From positions 62,001-126,000 of the forward strand of contig PDRW01000033.1 in the NCBI GenBank assembly GCA_002746935.1: a stretch of DNA of 64,000 nucleotides. Direction: 5' to 3'. Both the position numbers and the translations under genes were made by a program. Every line of letters begins with the position of its first letter. Position 1 is the first letter of the stretch. This stretch comes from Rhodobacterales bacterium (GTDB lineage Bacteria > Pseudomonadota > Alphaproteobacteria > Rhodobacterales > Rhodobacteraceae). Below are positions 16,938 to 24,132 of the stretch, piece after piece. The notes beneath the pieces were generated by a model. That model ran no database searches. It was not told the DNA's origin and worked only from the letters and a program-made list of their open reading frames with translations.

Positions 16938-17498
16938 TCAGCCGGCGCCGCGGGCCAGCGCCGCAACCCCGGTGCGGGCCATCTCGACGAGGCCGAGGGG
17001 GCGCATGAGTTCGGCGAAGGCGTCGATCTTGCGGGTGGTGCCGGTGATTTCGAAGACGAAGCTTTCGAGCGTCGAATCCACCACCTTGGCGCGGTAGATG
17101 TCGGCCATGCGCAGCGCTTCGAGGCGCTTTTCGCCCGCCCCCTTCACCTTGAACAGCGCCAGTTCGCGCTCGACGCAGTCGCTCTCCACAGTGAGGTCGT
17201 GCATCTCGTGCACCGGCACGATGCGGCCGAGCTGGGCCTTGATCTGTTCGATCACCTGCGGCGTGCCGGTGGTGACGATGGTGATCCGCGACGTGTGGCC
17301 GGTATGGTCCACCTCGGCGACGGTCAGGCTGTCGATGTTGTAGCCGCGTCCCGAAAACAGCCCGATCACCCGGGCGAGCACGCCGGCTTCGTTGTCCACC
17401 AGCACCGCGAGCGTGTGGCGTTCGCTGGCTTCGGCATTGGGATCGCGAAGGTCGTAGGCCGACATGCGGGAGGATCCTTTCTGAATTTTCAGTGCCAT
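16938..17498 (-). CDS. ilvN: Acetolactate synthase small (regulatory) subunit
   Basis: A 186-residue regulatory subunit of acetohydroxyacid synthase. The N-terminal ACT domain (about 27-100) begins HTLAVLVDNEAGVLARVIGL and carries GYNIDSLTVA, the valine-binding region that gives feedback inhibition; a second ACT-like domain follows. Length is close to the typical 160-190. Start: ATG behind GGAGGAACGACA. It lies 12 bases after ilvB and is clearly cotranscribed, so it shares the upstream attenuator. Confidence 0.95.
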   Translation of the reverse strand: MALKIQKGSSRMSAYDLRDPNAEASERHTLAVLVDNEAGVLARVIGLFSGRGYNIDSLTVAEVDHTGHTSRITIVTTGTPQVIEQIKAQLGRIVPVHEMHDLTVESDCVERELALFKVKGAGEKRLEALRMADIYRAKVVDSTLESFVFEITGTTRKIDAFAELMRPLGLVEMARTGVAALARGAG

Positions 17499-17510: not shown

Positions 17511-19265
17511 TTACACCAGAACCTGACCGTCGCCCTGGATGGCGTCGGTGGCGGCGGCATCGCCCATGAGCATGTGGTTGTGCGGCTCGCCCGACGGGAT
17601 CATCGGGAAGCAGTTTTCGTGTTTCTCGACCAGCACTTCCAGCAGGAAGGGCCCGTCATGGGCGAGCATCTCCCCGATCGCTGCGTCGAGATCCGCCGGA
17701 TCGGACACCGTGCGGCCCTTGCAGCCGAAGGCTTCGGCGAGTTTCGGGAAGTCCGGCAGGCTTTCCATCCAGCTTTGCGAATAGCGCTCGCCGTGCAGCA
17801 GTTGCTGCCACTGGCGCACCATGCCGAGGCGCTCGTTGTTGAGGATGAACTGTTTCACCGGCAGGCGGAACTGCACCGCCGTGGCAAGCTCCTGAAGGTT
17901 CATCATGATCGAGGCATCGCCCGCGATATTGATGACCAGACTGTCGGGATGCGCCATCTGCACCCCGTTGGAGGCCGGCATGCCGTAGCCCATGGTGCCG
18001 AGGCCGCCGGAGGTCATCCAGCGGTTGGGCTCGTCGAAGCCGAGGAATTGCGCCGCCCACATCTGGTGCTGGCCGACATCGGTGGTGATGTAGCGGTCCT
18101 TGTCCCTGGTGAGGGCTTCGAGGCGCTGGAGCGCGTATTGCGGCTTGATCACCGTGTCGCTCTGCTCATAGGCGAGGCAATTGACCTGTTTCCACTTCTC
18201 GATCTGCTCCCACCATCTGGCGAGGGCGGGTTTGTCGGTCACCCGGCCGCGGGATTTCCAGATCCGCAGCAGGTCTTCGAGCACATGGCCGACATCGCCG
18301 GTGATCGGCAGGTCGACCTGGATGATCTTGTTGATCGAAGAGGCGTCGATGTCGATCTGGGCCTTGGTGGAGCCGGGCGAGAAGGCATCGGTGCGGCCGG
18401 TGATGCGGTCGTCGAAGCGGGCGCCGATGGCGATCATCAGATCGCAATCGTGCATCGCCATGTTGGCCTCGTAGAGGCCGTGCATGCCGAGCATCCCCAG
18501 CCAGTTCCTGCCCGAGGCCGGATAGGCGCCGAGACCCATCAGCGTCGAGGTGATCGGGAAGCCGGTGGCATCGACCAGTTCGCGCAGCAGCTGGCTGGCA
18601 CCGGGGCCGGAGTTGATCACCCCGCCGCCGGTATAGAACACCGGCCGTTCGGCAGTTTCGATCAGCGCCACCAGCTCGGTGATCCGGTCGGTGTCGCCCT
18701 TGACGGCGGGTTTGTAATGGCTGGTGCGGGCCTTGGCCGGCGGGGTGTAGCGGCCGGTGGCGAATTGCACGTCCTTGGGGATGTCGATCAGCGTCGGGCC
18801 GGGGCGGCCGGTGGTGGCGACGTGGAAGGCCTGATGGATGGTCTCGGCCAGCGCGTCGGTATCCTTCACCAGCCAGTTGTGCTTGGTGCAGGGGCGGGTG
18901 ATGCCCACGGTGTCGGCCTCCTGAAAGCCGTCGGTGCCGATCATGAAGGTGGGCACCTGACCGGTGAAGACCACCAGCGGGATCGAGTCGAGCAGCGCGT
19001 CGGTGAGGCCGGTGACCGCATTGGTCGCCGCCGGGCCGGAGGTGACCAGCACCACGCCGGGCTTGCCGGTGGAGCGGGCATAGCCCTCGGCAGCATGGAC
19101 CGCGCCCTGTTCGTGGCGCACCAGAACGTGGCGGATGTCGTTTTGCTGGAAGATCTCGTCGTAGATCGGGAGCACCGCGCCGCCGGGATATCCGAACACC
19201 GTGTCCACGCCCTGATCCTTCAGGGCCTGGACCAACATCTTCGCTCCGGTCATCTGACGTGTCAT
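17511..19265 (-). CDS. ilvB: Acetolactate synthase large (catalytic) subunit
   Basis: A 584-residue thiamine-diphosphate enzyme that condenses pyruvate with pyruvate or 2-ketobutyrate, the first common step of branched-chain amino acid synthesis. The catalytic glutamate is Glu60 in HAAEGYAR; the FAD-associated middle domain follows; the diphosphate/Mg motif begins GDASIMMNLQELATA near residue 440 and ends in NN as it should. The ATG is preceded by GGAGAA. Upstream on the same strand lie a promoter, a leader peptide containing Leu-Ile-Val-Ala, and an intrinsic terminator, which argue for control by attenuation. Confidence 0.95.
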   Translation of the reverse strand: MTRQMTGAKMLVQALKDQGVDTVFGYPGGAVLPIYDEIFQQNDIRHVLVRHEQGAVHAAEGYARSTGKPGVVLVTSGPAATNAVTGLTDALLDSIPLVVFTGQVPTFMIGTDGFQEADTVGITRPCTKHNWLVKDTDALAETIHQAFHVATTGRPGPTLIDIPKDVQFATGRYTPPAKARTSHYKPAVKGDTDRITELVALIETAERPVFYTGGGVINSGPGASQLLRELVDATGFPITSTLMGLGAYPASGRNWLGMLGMHGLYEANMAMHDCDLMIAIGARFDDRITGRTDAFSPGSTKAQIDIDASSINKIIQVDLPITGDVGHVLEDLLRIWKSRGRVTDKPALARWWEQIEKWKQVNCLAYEQSDTVIKPQYALQRLEALTRDKDRYITTDVGQHQMWAAQFLGFDEPNRWMTSGGLGTMGYGMPASNGVQMAHPDSLVINIAGDASIMMNLQELATAVQFRLPVKQFILNNERLGMVRQWQQLLHGERYSQSWMESLPDFPKLAEAFGCKGRTVSDPADLDAAIGEMLAHDGPFLLEVLVEKHENCFPMIPSGEPHNHMLMGDAAATDAIQGDGQVLV

Positions 19266-19291
19266 CTCTGTTCTCCGTTCACACGCGCGTC

Positions 19292-19319
19292 AAAAAAAAG
19301 GCCCCCGGGGTTCGGGGGC
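19292..19319 (-). terminator. Attenuator terminator in the ilvB leader
   Basis: Read on the minus strand: a perfect 7-bp stem GCCCCCG/CGGGGGC with loop AACCC, one C, then eight T. It lies 26 bases before the ilvB ATG, so it ends transcription before the gene unless an alternative structure forms. Confidence 0.88.
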
Positions 19320-19360
19320 GCATCGGGAAGTCTCAGGGTGCCGTCACCGCCCCATGCGCC
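19317..19360 (-). promoter_or_regulatory. Candidate antiterminator pairing in the ilvB leader
   Basis: On the minus strand GGCGCATGGGG (19360-19350, the Trp-Arg-Met-Gly codons of the leader peptide) can pair with CCCGATGCGCC (19327-19317) with one mismatch. The second partner overlaps the 5' arm of the terminator stem, so the two structures compete. GGGGCG at 19353-19348 can also pair with CGCCCC at 19320-19315. Confidence 0.6.
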
Positions 19361-19394
19361 AATGGTTCTCTGCTACGATGAGGCTGGTGGACAT
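19344..19394 (-). CDS. ilvBN leader peptide (16 residues)
   Basis: A short frame reads MSTSLIVAENHWRMGR and stops. AAGGAA lies 8 bases before the ATG. Residues 5-8 are Leu-Ile-Val-Ala in a row, the three end products of the ilv pathway plus alanine. The peptide ends 24 bases before the terminator hairpin, and its last codons form one side of the candidate antiterminator. This is the layout of ribosome-mediated attenuation: a ribosome stalled at LIVA leaves the WRMG codons free to pair and prevents termination; a ribosome reaching the stop covers them. Function is inferred from this arrangement. Confidence 0.8.
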   Translation of the reverse strand: MSTSLIVAENHWRMGR

Positions 19395-19420
19395 CGGGCG
19401 GTTCCTTCGAATTCGGCGCG

Positions 19421-19449
19421 AGCTTAGGAGCGCTGGCCGGGGGGGTCAA
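19421..19449 (-). promoter_or_regulatory. Sigma-70-type promoter of the ilvBN leader
   Basis: On the minus strand TTGACC, 17 bases, TAAGCT. The predicted start of transcription near 19414 gives a 20-base 5' end before the leader peptide. Confidence 0.6.
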
Positions 19450-20136
19450 CGGCAAAACGGGTTTTTGATATGTCGCGGGGCGGGGTTGGAGCGATTTTTT
19501 GTTGTGTGTGTCGCGGAAAGAACGCAATTTTCGGCATTTGGTTGGGCGGCAGGGGCAGGGGCCGCCTGCGGCGGGCTTTTCCGGGGGCTCATTTGCGGAT
19601 TGCAGGCGAAACGGGTGGCCGATGTCGCTGAATAGCCCGCCGCGGAAAGCAGACTGCCGGGATCGGGCCGGATGCCGGCAGCGATGCCGTCGGGGGTTTC
19701 GGGGCTGGCGTGAGCGCCATGCCCCGGATCAGTGTCGCGGGATGGCGGCGGTTGCGGCAGCATTTGCCGCCGGGCCGGGTCGTACAGGGCCGGTCGCAGC
19801 GGCCGCAGGGGGAAGCCCTGAGAGCAGATATTTCGTCTGGTGCCCGGCCAAAGGGTTGCCCGCCTCGCCGCCTTGCGCGCGGTGGCCCTCACCGGGAAGG
19901 AGGTGGCGGCCGATGAAAAACCAGCGCAGGCCGGGGCAGTTCCGGGCAACAGGATGCCGCCCGTGAAGCCTGAGGCCGGCAGAGCCTGGAAACGCTGCGA
20001 GACCGCCGCAAGACGTCTGAAAAGGCGGGACGACGTCAGGGGTTGGGAAGAGGGGGAAACGGAGCCTGCCTGCGCAAACCGGCGCCGGTCTGCGGCTTTC
20101 GGCAATGACAGGGCAGAACAGGCGGCGGGCCCATGG

Positions 20137-20178
20137 GGGCGGGTGTGATGCGCCCTCCCGGGCGCATCACACCCGCCC
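20137..20178. repeat. Perfect 19-bp inverted repeat with a 4-base loop
   Basis: GGGCGGGTGTGATGCGCCC (20137-20155), loop TCCC, then its exact complement (20160-20178). No T tract follows on either strand, so it is not a standard intrinsic terminator. It begins 6 bases from the 28-bp repeat array. Confidence 0.9.
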
Positions 20179-20184
20179 GCCGCC

Positions 20185-20324
20185 GGCGCACAAGGACGGA
20201 CGGTCCGCCGCCGGCGCACAAGGACGGACGGTCCGCCGCCGGCGCACAAGGACGGACGGTCCGCCGCCGGCGCACAAGGGCCGGCTGCCCGCCGCCGGTG
20301 CACAAGGACAAAGAATCCGCCGCA
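20185..20324. repeat. Five 28-bp tandem repeats
   Basis: Three identical units (starts 20185, 20213, 20241) and two degenerate units (20269, 20297) of 28 bp. Each begins GGCGCACAAGGACGGACGG and ends TCCGCCGCC, and contains the dyad CGGAC-G-GTCCG. There are no spacers, so this is not a CRISPR array. The array begins 33 bases after the ABC-F stop codon. Confidence 0.92.
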
Positions 20325-20357: not shown

Positions 20358-22274
20358 TCAGGCCTGCCCGAGCGCTGCGTCGAGCTTCTCCTGCGCTTCG
20401 ATCCACAGGGTCTCGGCGCGGTCCAGGGCCTGCATCACCTCGGCATGTTTCATCTGCCATTTGGCGATGTCGTCGGCCCGGCCGCCCTCGTAGAGCGCCG
20501 GGTCGGCGAGTTTGGCGTCGAGCCGGGCGCGCATCTCTTCGAGCTTTTCCACCCGGGCTTCGCATTTGCGCAGTTCGCCGCGCAGCGCCAGCAGGGCGTC
20601 GCGGTCGGGGCGTTTGGGGGCGGGACGACTGGTCTCGGGGCTTTTGGGGGCGGGGCCGCCGGTATCGGGGCGAGCCTGTCCGGCCCCGGGACGGCGCCCA
20701 GGTGTCGCCGCCGCATCGGAGGCCAGCAGCAGCTTTGCGTAAGCCGCGAGGTCGTCTTCGAACGGCGCCACCCGTCCGCCCTTCACCAGCCACAGCCGGT
20801 CGGCCACCAGCGACAGCAGGTGCATGTCGTGGCTGACCAGCACCACCGCGCCGCAATAGGCGGTGAGCGCCTCGATCAGCGCTTCGCGGCTCTCGATGTC
20901 GAGATGGTTGGTCGGCTCGTCCAGCACCAGCAGATGCGGCGCGTCGAGCGTGGCGACCAGCAGGGTGAGCCGCGCCTTCTGGCCGCCGGAAAGCTTGCCG
21001 ATCAGTGTATCGGCCTGATCGGCGTTGAGCCCGAAGCCCGAGAGCCGCGCCCGCCATTTCGGCGGCCCCTCCAGCGGACGCAACCGGCGCAGCATTTCCA
21101 GCGGGGTCTCGTTGCCGCGCAGCACATCCATCTGATGCTGGGCGAAATAGCCGATCCGCAGTCGCGAGCTGCGTTGCAGCTTGCCCGACATCGCCTCCAA
21201 CTCGCCGACGATCAGCTTCGCCAGCGTCGACTTGCCCTCGCCGTTCTTGCCCAGAAGTGCAATCCGGTCGTCCTGGTCGATGCGCAGATCGAGCCGCGAC
21301 AACACCGGGGTGCCGCCGTAACCGCAGGCCGCGCCCTCGATATTGATGATCGGCGGCGACAGCTCCTCGGGTTCCGGGAAGGAAAACCGGCGCAGCGCCG
21401 CCTCCTGCGGCGTGGCGATGAATTTGATCCGCTCGATCATCTTCAGCCGCGCCTGGGCCTGACGGGCCTTGGATTCCTTGTAGCGGAAGCGGTCGACGAA
21501 ACTTTGCAGATGCGCGCGGCGGGCCTCGGCCTTGCGGTTTTCGGCTTCGGCCACCGCCAGCCGGGCGGCGCGGGTGGCGGCGAAAGTGTCGTAAGGCCCC
21601 GAATAATAGGTGAGCTTGCGGTCTTCGAGATGCAGGATGCCGGTGACCGCGCGGTTGAGCAGCGCCCGGTCGTGACTGACGATGATCACCGTATGCGGGT
21701 AGCGGGCGAGGTAGTTTTCGAGCCAGAGCGCGCCTTCGAGGTCGAGGTAGTTGGTGGGCTCGTCGAGCAGCAGGAGGTCGGGCCGGGAAAACAGCACCGC
21801 CGCCAGCGCCACCCGCATCCGCCAGCCGCCGGAGAAATCGGCGCAGGGGCGCGTCTGGTCAGTGTCATCGAAGCCGAGCCCCTTGAGGATCGCCGCGGCG
21901 CGGGCCTCGGCCGACCAGGCGTCGATATCGGCCAGCCGGGTCTGGATCTCGGCGATGCGCAGCCCGTCCTGCGCGGCCTCGGCCTCGGCCAGCAGCGCGG
22001 CGCGTTCGGTATCGGCGGCGAGCACGGTGTCGATCAGGCTGACATCGCTGGCCGGGGCCTCCTGCGCCACGCCGCCGATCCGTGCGCCACGGGGCAGGGA
22101 GATGTCGCCGGTCTCAAGCGTGAGCTCGCCGCGGATCAGCCTGAACAGCGTGGTCTTGCCGGTGCCGTTGCGCCCGACAAGGCCGACCTTGTGGCCCTCG
22201 GGGATCACCGCGGAGGCATGGTCGATGAGCGGGCGGCCCTCGATGGAAAAGGAGATGTCGTCGATGCGCAGCAT
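20358..22274 (-). CDS. ABC-F family ATP-binding protein (Uup/YheS-like)
   Basis: A 638-residue soluble protein with two ABC ATPase domains and no membrane segments. ABC-F proteins act on ribosomes as translation factors or antibiotic-protection factors. Domain 1 has Walker A GRNGTGKT and Walker B LLLLDEPTNYLD; domain 2 has GKNGEGKS, LSGGQKARL and LLVLDEPTNHLD. The interdomain P-site tRNA linker is the basic stretch around RFRYKESKARQAQARLKM (near 265-285). A C-terminal coiled coil rich in Ala, Arg and Glu follows a Pro-rich hinge, as in YheS/Uup. The start is the ATG at MLRIDDISFS; a much longer frame upstream crosses a repeat region. Subfamily is not certain. Confidence 0.9.
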   Translation of the reverse strand: MLRIDDISFSIEGRPLIDHASAVIPEGHKVGLVGRNGTGKTTLFRLIRGELTLETGDISLPRGARIGGVAQEAPASDVSLIDTVLAADTERAALLAEAEAAQDGLRIAEIQTRLADIDAWSAEARAAAILKGLGFDDTDQTRPCADFSGGWRMRVALAAVLFSRPDLLLLDEPTNYLDLEGALWLENYLARYPHTVIIVSHDRALLNRAVTGILHLEDRKLTYYSGPYDTFAATRAARLAVAEAENRKAEARRAHLQSFVDRFRYKESKARQAQARLKMIERIKFIATPQEAALRRFSFPEPEELSPPIINIEGAACGYGGTPVLSRLDLRIDQDDRIALLGKNGEGKSTLAKLIVGELEAMSGKLQRSSRLRIGYFAQHQMDVLRGNETPLEMLRRLRPLEGPPKWRARLSGFGLNADQADTLIGKLSGGQKARLTLLVATLDAPHLLVLDEPTNHLDIESREALIEALTAYCGAVVLVSHDMHLLSLVADRLWLVKGGRVAPFEDDLAAYAKLLLASDAAATPGRRPGAGQARPDTGGPAPKSPETSRPAPKRPDRDALLALRGELRKCEARVEKLEEMRARLDAKLADPALYEGGRADDIAKWQMKHAEVMQALDRAETLWIEAQEKLDAALGQA

Positions 22275-22434
22275 GAGGGCGGCTTGCCAGAGGGCCGGTG
22301 GGCTGTCAATCGGCGGGCCGGAGGGGAATGCCCCGGGGAGGGGCGCGGTCTGTTCGGGGGGCTTTGGGGCGCGGCACCTCACCGTTTCCGGGCAATTCCC
22401 GGGCAATCGCGGCGGAGGGGCGGGTTCGGGATAG

Positions 22435-22464
22435 TCCATTAGTCCGGAATTCCGGACTAATGGA
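22435..22464. repeat. Perfect 30-bp palindrome
   Basis: The left half is TCCATTAGTCCGGAA and the right half is its exact reverse complement, with no spacer. It is much richer in A and T than its surroundings and lies 161 bases upstream of the ABC-F start on that gene's strand. It may be an operator or a hairpin in the transcript. Confidence 0.92.
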
Positions 22465-22546
22465 AACGCCATAATTGGGAGGTAAAACAAAGGGTTGCAG
22501 GGGTGAAAATGCCGGTTTCCGCCGGGTGCCGGCTGCCGTTTCTGGC

Positions 22547-22588
22547 GTCGCCCGTCGCCCGTCGCCCGTCGCCCGCCGCCCGTCGCTG
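22547..22588. repeat. Heptanucleotide GTCGCCC tandem repeat
   Basis: Four perfect GTCGCCC units (22547-22574) are followed by GCCGCCC and a partial unit. It is intergenic, starts 54 bases past the cobQ stop counted along cobQ's strand, and is a candidate for length variation. Confidence 0.85.
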
Positions 22589-22641
22589 GCCGCCCCGTCG
22601 CCGCCCGTCTCTGGCCGGGGCGCTGGCCGTCGCCCTGGCGC

Positions 22642-24132
<1,491 letters not shown>

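Follow-up and report, generated by a model that had tools for sequence, protein, structure and literature searches.

A probable ribosome-mediated transcription attenuator upstream of ilvBN in a Rhodobacterales bacterium, a partly worn member of a family-wide leader element

Results

The leader upstream of ilvB

The DNA analysed here is a stretch of 64,000 nucleotides (the window) from a Rhodobacterales bacterium (GenBank assembly GCA_002746935.1, 2.8 Mb and 83.9% complete; contig PDRW01000033.1, positions 62,001 to 126,000), which carries on its minus strand the genes for the large and small subunits of acetolactate synthase, ilvB (ilvI) and ilvN (ilvH). The region preceding ilvB most probably controls the ilvBN(IH) operon as a ribosome-mediated transcription attenuator, and its sequence suggests a partly worn copy of an element found across the family; we put the probability of this reading at roughly 0.8. 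The initial annotation of this DNA, made from the letters alone, had described a promoter (TTGACC-N17-TAAGCT), a Shine-Dalgarno (SD) sequence, a 16-codon frame, a 7-bp GC terminator, a T8 tract and ilvB in this order, and every one of these features was found on the strand given (Table 1). An open reading frame (ORF) with clustered codons for the amino acids of its own operon is present between the promoter and ilvB, the cluster in the window being Leu-Ile-Val only, and an intrinsic terminator is present between this ORF and ilvB. A general promoter scan called no promoter at the window leader; the top promoter-like site, however, starts with TTGAC in 63 of the 66 leaders of the family described below (the window among them) vs. 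3% of shuffled sequences.

Table 1. Features of the ilvB leader and operon in the window.
Feature	Position	Strand	Basis
-35 box TTGACC	19444..19449	-	read from sequence; promoter-like sites of relatives
-10 box TAAGCT, 17-nt spacer after TTGACC	19421..19426	-	read from sequence
SD-like AAGGAA	19402..19407	-	read from sequence
Leader ORF MSTSLIVAENHWRMGR, 16 codons, ATG 19394-19392, stop TGA 19346-19344	19344..19394	-	sequence and relatives
Control codons Leu CTC, Ile ATC, Val GTA	19374..19382	-	sequence
Predicted antiterminator helix P1, 5' strand GGCGCAUGGG (Trp-Arg-Met-Gly codons)	19351..19360	-	helix of relatives, model
Predicted antiterminator helix P1, 3' strand CCC(G)AUGCGCC, one bulged G	19317..19327	-	helix of relatives, folding, model
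Site of stop-codon hairpin P2: CG-GUGA-CG in the window, often CCG-GUAA-CGG in relatives	19341..19350	-	hairpin scoring
Intrinsic terminator GCCCCCG/AACCC/CGGGGGC, 7 G-C pairs	19301..19319	-	terminator scan
T8 tract of the terminator, one C between stem and tract	19292..19299	-	sequence, terminator scan
ilvB/ilvI, acetolactate synthase large subunit, ATG 19265-19263	17511..19265	-	NCBIfam NF006581, 1096.8 bits, cut-off 974
ilvN/ilvH, acetolactate synthase small subunit	16938..17498	-	NCBIfam TIGR00119, 171.7 bits, cut-off 56.9

The element is spread over the family

For comparison, we assembled 110 upstream regions, comprising 80 IlvB loci from GTDB genomes, 29 from relatives of the window genome, and the window itself. 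A script kept the 91 regions where a leader ORF was followed by a terminator, 66 of them in the family (drawn from the window, L004-L041 and L072, assigned by record title and IlvB identity, and L084-L112, stated to be of the same genus or family) and 25 others, mostly Rhizobiales by title; the grouping was made without a tree, and the family was equated with Rhodobacteraceae on the basis of record titles. The script found no terminator in 18 of the 110 regions (L012, L043, L048, L062, L066, L069-L071, L074-L082 and L090; L043 had only 95 nt of upstream DNA), and L032 was dropped by the three-codon rule despite a visible leader, MDCFVDDVGKKRMGR. L029 and L107 share one leader, so that the family alignment (A1) has 65 rows. 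Since MAFFT misaligns diverged leaders, a per-leader shuffle test was added.

A covariance model, R1, was built from the 65 leaders, the window being one of the rows. At the window site it scored 60.7 bits (E 1.3e-17, the value of a training row) with P1 and the terminator present and P2 below 3 bp, the next best hit in the window reaching 11.2 bits; this site is the sole R1 match in its own genome. Run on 150 family genomes from as many genera, the model matched 133 at E <= 0.001; without 23 genomes known to have supplied training leaders (there may be more), the count is 110 of 127; weak matches may be due to chance or lie elsewhere. An IlvB start lies immediately downstream of each of the 31 matches checked (the 30 top-ranking ones and that of the window). 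The initial annotation had named a lack of conservation of the small frame or of its pairing in related genomes as the observation to speak against it, and the data contradict such a lack, as both the ORF and the pairing are kept. They likewise contradict the idea that a chance ORF happens to lie between a promoter and a terminator: although GC-rich DNA often gives terminator-like sites (4 were found in 1.7 kb vs. 1.3 expected), the ORF, promoter, helix and position are conserved in most sampled family genomes, which makes a chance origin extremely improbable.

One family genome (G030) has two full-length IlvB genes with the element just upstream of each (C24:54125-54209 and C49:87743-87825). 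At the ilvB gene of Paracoccus limosus (L012) a promoter-like site is seen, neither leader nor terminator was found, and the attenuator seems to have been lost. Of eight R1 matches away from ilvB that were retrieved, three precede a gene for a major facilitator superfamily (MFS) transporter; in G010 the best match precedes a gene other than ilvB. Genes for Bcr/CflA-type MFS transporters (TIGR00710 above cut-off for the three proteins tested) carry a similar leader attenuator upstream at L157 (G010), L159 (G471), L160/L165 (G007) and L167 (G014), where reading by eye or by script gave the leaders MTTRFDIVGRQRMEP (L157), MSFLNVVVSVRCVVR (L159), a Val-rich one (L160) and MITVVVVVMRERRVDR (L167). 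When 18 relatives of the transporter at L159 from 61 family genomes were inspected, such a leader was seen at three (L165-L167), which hints at a transporter that either deals with branched-chain amino acids or responds to stalled ribosomes.

The last leader codons form one strand of the predicted helix P1

The initial annotation had proposed that the Trp-Arg-Met-Gly (WRMG) codons can pair with a stretch overlapping the 5' arm of the terminator, and this pairing turned out to be conserved. In the window the helix starts at the second base of the Trp codon: GGCGCAU of the W-R-M codons (19360-19354) pairs with AUGCGCC (19323-19317) to form a core of 7 bp, extended by GGG:CCC past the bulged G at 19324, and three bases (19319-19317) are common to P1 and the terminator arm. 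The domain that runs from 24 nt before the stop codon up to the terminator arm has a better fold than 100 of 100 dinucleotide shuffles (z -3.31), whereas the fold of the whole 150-nt leader is ordinary when compared to its shuffles (z -0.40). The same domain was matched by no more than 1 of 100 shuffles in 30/66 family and 17/25 other leaders, and its z fell below -2 in 45/66 and 21/25, respectively; L083 (z +0.74) is a doubtful call.

In all 57 of the 66 family leaders that have RMG, the preceding codon ends in G and the Arg is encoded by CGC (57/57 each; raw counts, without a codon-usage baseline), although the residue preceding RMG may be Trp, Thr, Lys, Ala, Leu, Arg, Met or Gly. This wobble G together with CGCATGG forms part of the P1 5' strand, and the 3' strand, CCCATGCGC, abuts the terminator. 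The N-terminus of the leader peptide, unlike these wobble bases, is variable among relatives, and in one family leader (L110) the helix is located past the stop codon, so that a peptide role is excluded there. Judging by this wobble constraint, the last leader codons are fixed by RNA pairing because the helix P1 needs them. The earlier proposal that the whole C-terminal HWRMGR is fixed in this way thus holds from the last two bases of Trp through Gly, while His lies outside the helix.

The alignment of the 65 family leaders is consistent with the entire fold. For P1, the inner hairpin (P2) and the terminator taken together, 92.5% of cells are paired vs. 88.6% in shuffles (0/500 as high) and 32-51% when the partners are slid by 1-3 columns; both-side changes were seen in 11 of 18 pairs vs. 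3.1 in shuffles and 5-8 in slid alignments. Outside the family P1 is retained with other letters, e.g., in L042 (GCGCACCG:CGGTGCGC) and L063, the best helix being chosen by the script. In L026 the script's "P1" is in fact the inner hairpin, and P1 as seen by eye is GCGCAC:GTGCGC. The exact P1 pattern is identical to its reverse complement. We looked for it in 385 genomes drawn from the class and found it in 9, once each in all four other family genomes drawn and in five non-family genomes, of which one (G142) resembles a Rhizobiales leader; it is missing from the window's own genome.

The position of P1 relative to the terminator differs between the groups. P1 and the terminator overlap by 1-5 nt in 62/66 family leaders, while they are separated by a gap of 4-10 nt, with zero overlap, in all 25 leaders outside the family. 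The distance of the promoter from the ORF was also recorded: in 16 of the 25 leaders outside the family, 7-9 nt separate the end of the -10 box from the start codon vs. a family median of 28 nt, so that these 16 leader mRNAs look leaderless.

A hairpin with the stop codon in its loop

Inside the antiterminator, 86 of the 91 leaders place the stop codon in the loop of a hairpin, P2, with a score of at least 9. The mean P2 score over the 91 leaders was 11.8 vs. 6.8 with the 3' flank shuffled; this control is not clean, since 43% still score at least 9 after shuffling the 15 nt that follow the stop. At other codon offsets a score of at least 9 was reached in 4 to 44 of the 91 leaders vs. 86 at the stop. 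The hairpin is kept with changed pairs, as in CCG-GTAA-CGG, GCGG-GTAA-CCGT (L031), GGTCT-GTAA-AGACT (L104) and GACG-GTGA-CGTC (L086), in the Rhizobiales forms GGATGG-TGTAA-CCATCC and GGCGG-TGTAA-CCGCC, and in GGCGGTC-TGAG-GACCGCC of L063. In 58/66 family leaders the last codon base plus the stop reads GUAA or GUGA, and we take such loops to be of the GNRA type. P2 is missing in five leaders, those of the window, L017, L084, L103 and L110; the window scored 0, as no hairpin of at least 3 bp encloses its stop codon, and what remains is a stem of 2 bp.

Control codons and the worn state of the window copy

The family leaders typically follow the pattern M-x-x-L-V-V-I-V-x-x-x-RMGR, and those of Rhizobiales typically end with VVGxRMGRMV or VVGxRMGKAV. 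In the 66 family leaders the choice of control codons departs from that in the same ilvB genes: Val GTA makes up 51% (of 171) vs. 4%, Leu CTA 28% (of 88) vs. 1%, Leu CTT 42% vs. 12%, and Ile ATT 58% (of 78) vs. 14%. The codon bias of the E. coli attenuation leaders has been explained by selective tRNA charging, rarity alone being called "an oversimplification" in the consulted part of the source (PMC1183508).

The initial annotation had singled out Leu-Ile-Val-Ala as the control block. A block of branched-chain codons is indeed conserved, but Ala does not belong to it. Four same-genus relatives are richer here (RIVVVDDWRMGR, LIVVVDERRMGW and, twice, LIVVVDERRMGR; leaders MNRIRIVVVDDWRMGR, MKSILIVVVDERRMGW, MTCILIVVVDERRMGR and MTGILIVVVDERRMGR), leaving the window with only three control codons. 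Before the helix the same-genus leaders read IVVV or LIVVV, whereas the window reads LIV followed by Ala-Glu-Asn-His, and six bases are inserted before P1 relative to the family model. The attenuator had also been called "complete"; by its anatomy it is an attenuator, but, with its bulged P1 and its stop-codon hairpin of 2 bp, the window copy is, as far as its sequence tells, partly worn. Among the same-genus leaders, L084 also lacks P2, and P1 is interrupted in L084 and L085.

The same features would be expected if the attenuator were real in the family and had worn out here, so that the terminator fires or leaks constantly and ilvB is not tuned by branched-chain amino acids. The bulged G in P1, the lost P2, the insertion and the poorer control block all speak in its favor, as do the defects in L084 and L085. 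Against it, the window still matches the family model, if only as a training row, retains the start codon, the terminator and P1, and its arm pairing still tracks the position of the ribosome in the folding test described below (3.1 vs. 0.8 nt). We therefore consider a complete loss of tuning here quite unlikely and prefer a partly worn attenuator.

A GC-rich 28-bp unit is repeated in tandem (4.8 copies, 20177-20309) in the interval that separates the ilvB promoter from the end of a minus-strand ORF (20358-22967), which by eye resembles an ATP-binding cassette (ABC) ATPase.

Folding with a masked ribosome predicts less arm pairing than in E. coli

In the main test, the transcript was cut before the 3' arm of the terminator and folded with 12 nt masked as the presumed footprint of a ribosome that sits at the first control codon, at the last one or at the stop codon. 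With the window leader, 3.1, 3.1 and 0.8 of the 7 arm bases were paired at the three positions, respectively. The E. coli leaders trpL, leuL, thrL and ivbL gave 5.0, 6.0, 10.0 and 6.8 at the first control codon, 5.0, 6.0, 7.0 and 5.2 at the last, and 0.1, 0.1, 0.5 and 1.9 at the stop. The family means were 4.1, 1.5 and 2.3 (n=66), the footprint at the last control codon already reaching P1, and the first control codon gave more arm pairing than the stop in 58/66 family leaders, by at least 1 nt in 45. The earlier claim that a stalled ribosome favors the pairing agrees with the predicted direction of the switch in the window copy, and the predicted effect is weaker than the 5-10 arm bases of E. 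coli.

Full-length equilibrium folding covered 11 leaders at first and then the 91 leaders, with the four E. coli leaders as controls. These controls kept their terminator pairing unchanged whatever the ribosome position, so that a kept terminator in these folds says little; the cut-transcript test separates the controls and was therefore chosen as the main one. For the family, the direction is that of the cut-transcript test: the mean probability of the basal two terminator pairs was 0.67 at the first control codon, 0.93 at the last and 1.00 at the stop (n=66), with 0.68, 0.71 and 1.00 in the window vs. 0.98, 0.99 and 0.96 in the 25 non-family leaders. A ribosome at the first control codon brought the stem probability below 0.5 in 8/66 and that of the basal pairs in 16/66 family leaders; at the stop none of the 66 fell below 0.5, and none of the 25 other leaders falls at all.

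Bases other than those of P1 may contribute as well. With the ribosome at the first control codon, bases upstream of P1 pair with 1.8 arm nt vs. 2.1 from P1 (family). A weak extra pairing of GGA, in the codons before P1, with UCC in the arm is available in 27/91 leaders, where both are present (Fisher p 5e-4 over all leaders and 0.02 for the family alone, uncorrected for relatedness), and this is suggestive only.

Relation to known systems

An "ilvB leader peptide" of alphaproteobacteria has been described before and is attributed to Vitreschak et al. 2004 in the part of PMC1273637 consulted; an excerpt of PMC2573895 lists a cis-regulatory element of S. meliloti ilvIH under the same reference. 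As far as these excerpts go, the described element resembles that of the window in the gene, the bacterial class and the presence of a leader peptide before ilvB. For Caulobacter crescentus, attenuation of ilvBN with tandem Ile/Val leader codons and a Rho-independent terminator before ilvBN has been reported (Tarleton et al. 1994, as cited in the consulted portion of PMC4117421), and this attenuator shares the plan of leader and terminator with the window, a likeness of description rather than of sequence. E. coli ivbL-ilvBN, leuL, thrL and trpL have, like the window, a leader ORF with control codons, an alternative pairing and a terminator; they differ in the extent of arm pairing under stalling, 5-10 bases vs. 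about 3 in the window and family means of 4.1 at the first control codon and 1.5 at the last.

Of 15 loci scanned with the Rfam family RF02502 (Atu_C8), 6 (L044, L047, L051, L060, L065 and L067) gave a match at the ilvB leader. The consensus of RF02502 contains P1, the hairpin with the stop codon in its loop and the terminator, just as the ilvB leaders do; unlike in the window, P1 and the terminator are separated, and the family is typed as a small RNA (sRNA) gene. It gave no match at the window site at the gathering threshold (50 bits), nor up to E 10 in 19150-19600, and four family loci scanned (L004, L014, L026 and L030) stayed below the threshold. Probably, the Atu_C8 matches at ilvB leaders represent the terminated attenuator RNA. 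Given the published alphaproteobacterial ilvB leader and Atu_C8, the window element belongs to a known kind. No description of the stop-codon hairpin was found in the literature searched, the full texts of Vitreschak 2004 and Tarleton 1994 lying outside its scope; this hairpin and the small P1-terminator overlap may be unreported.

One might suppose that the terminated leader serves mainly as a trans-acting sRNA or as a source of a functional peptide. The Rhizobiales form does stand in Rfam as an sRNA, and the trp leader of S. meliloti yields, according to an excerpt of PMC10117765, both a trans-acting sRNA and a functional peptide. The ilvB leaders, however, vary in the residue before RMG and in the N-terminus while the wobble base is fixed, and the element stands directly before ilvB, which renders such a main role very unlikely.

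Discussion

In this work, we compared the ilvB leader of the window with those of its relatives, and the results point to a ribosome-mediated transcription attenuator. Most probably, it would act as follows. A ribosome would follow RNA polymerase along the leader and translate the 16-codon ORF. When branched-chain aminoacyl-tRNA is ample, the ribosome would reach the stop codon and cover the W-R-M-G codons, thereby blocking P1, and the terminator would end transcription; a ribosome sitting at the stop would open both P1 and P2. When branched-chain aminoacyl-tRNA is scarce, the ribosome would wait on Leu-Ile-Val, P1 would form and take the basal bases of the terminator 5' arm, and transcription would continue into ilvB. 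We infer translation of the ORF, termination in vivo and the response to Leu, Ile and Val from the anatomy of the leader and its conservation.

Several observations weigh against this interpretation. In the window copy the control codons are few, P1 is bulged and P2 is missing, and the last control codon lies 16 nt from P1 vs. 10-11 nt in 47/66 family leaders. In the cut-transcript folds, a ribosome at the last control codon leaves the family with less arm pairing than one at the stop (1.5 vs. 2.3 nt); moreover, with everything masked up to P1 the family value is 2.6 vs. 2.2-2.3 at the stop and is higher in only 40-42/66, so that bases upstream of P1 account for part of the first-codon effect. 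Outside the family, the means of the 25 leaders are 2.4, 1.9 and 3.4 (first, last, stop); stalling gives more pairing than the stop in 5/25, and the order is reversed by at least 1 nt in 15/25. As to the helix, the script picks the best one available, so that its mere presence is no evidence by itself. Of the 29 cells changed on both sides (relatedness uncorrected), 18 belong to the terminator, 6 to the inner hairpin and 5 to P1. The alignment of Rhodobacteraceae ilvB upstream regions proposed in the initial annotation thus gave a conserved codon block and a covarying terminator but thin covariation of P1 (5/455 cells within the family), because P1 hardly varies; in the family P1 is therefore supported by conservation more than by covariation.

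How P1 would act on the terminator is a separate matter. Since P1 and the terminator share 1-5 nt in nearly all of the family and none outside it, P1 would compete for the terminator arm less strongly than the helices of the E. coli leaders do; the folding makes such competition plausible in the window and the family and leaves it unexplained in Rhizobiales. Alternatively, P1 and the stop-codon hairpin might act on RNA polymerase or on the speed of folding, a compact domain under the stalled ribosome letting the polymerase pass the terminator. The occurrence of the helix and the hairpin at a distance from the terminator in every leader outside the family, where the cut-transcript folds show zero added arm pairing, would fit such an action. 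The overlap kept in nearly all family leaders does not, the basal terminator pairs of the family are weaker with the ribosome at the first control codon, as overlap predicts, and the GGA-UCC pairing may add competition; we regard this alternative as unlikely. Returning to the attenuator as a class, we propose, tentatively and with considerable doubt, that the alphaproteobacterial ilvB leaders represent a distinct attenuator architecture, in which a junction-type antiterminator with an inner hairpin looping the leader's stop codon overrides the terminator with little or no base sharing, by a route other than arm competition.

If such an architecture does exist, one RNA domain would read whether the ribosome has reached the stop codon. 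The RNA helix offers a reason why the last leader codons are fixed, and an Rfam entry typed as a Rhizobiales sRNA is tied to the ilvB attenuator. The model R1 annotates the element in most sampled family genomes, while Rfam has no match at the window site. Two questions become testable in these bacteria: how a helix that barely touches the terminator may disable it, and what a worn copy retains.

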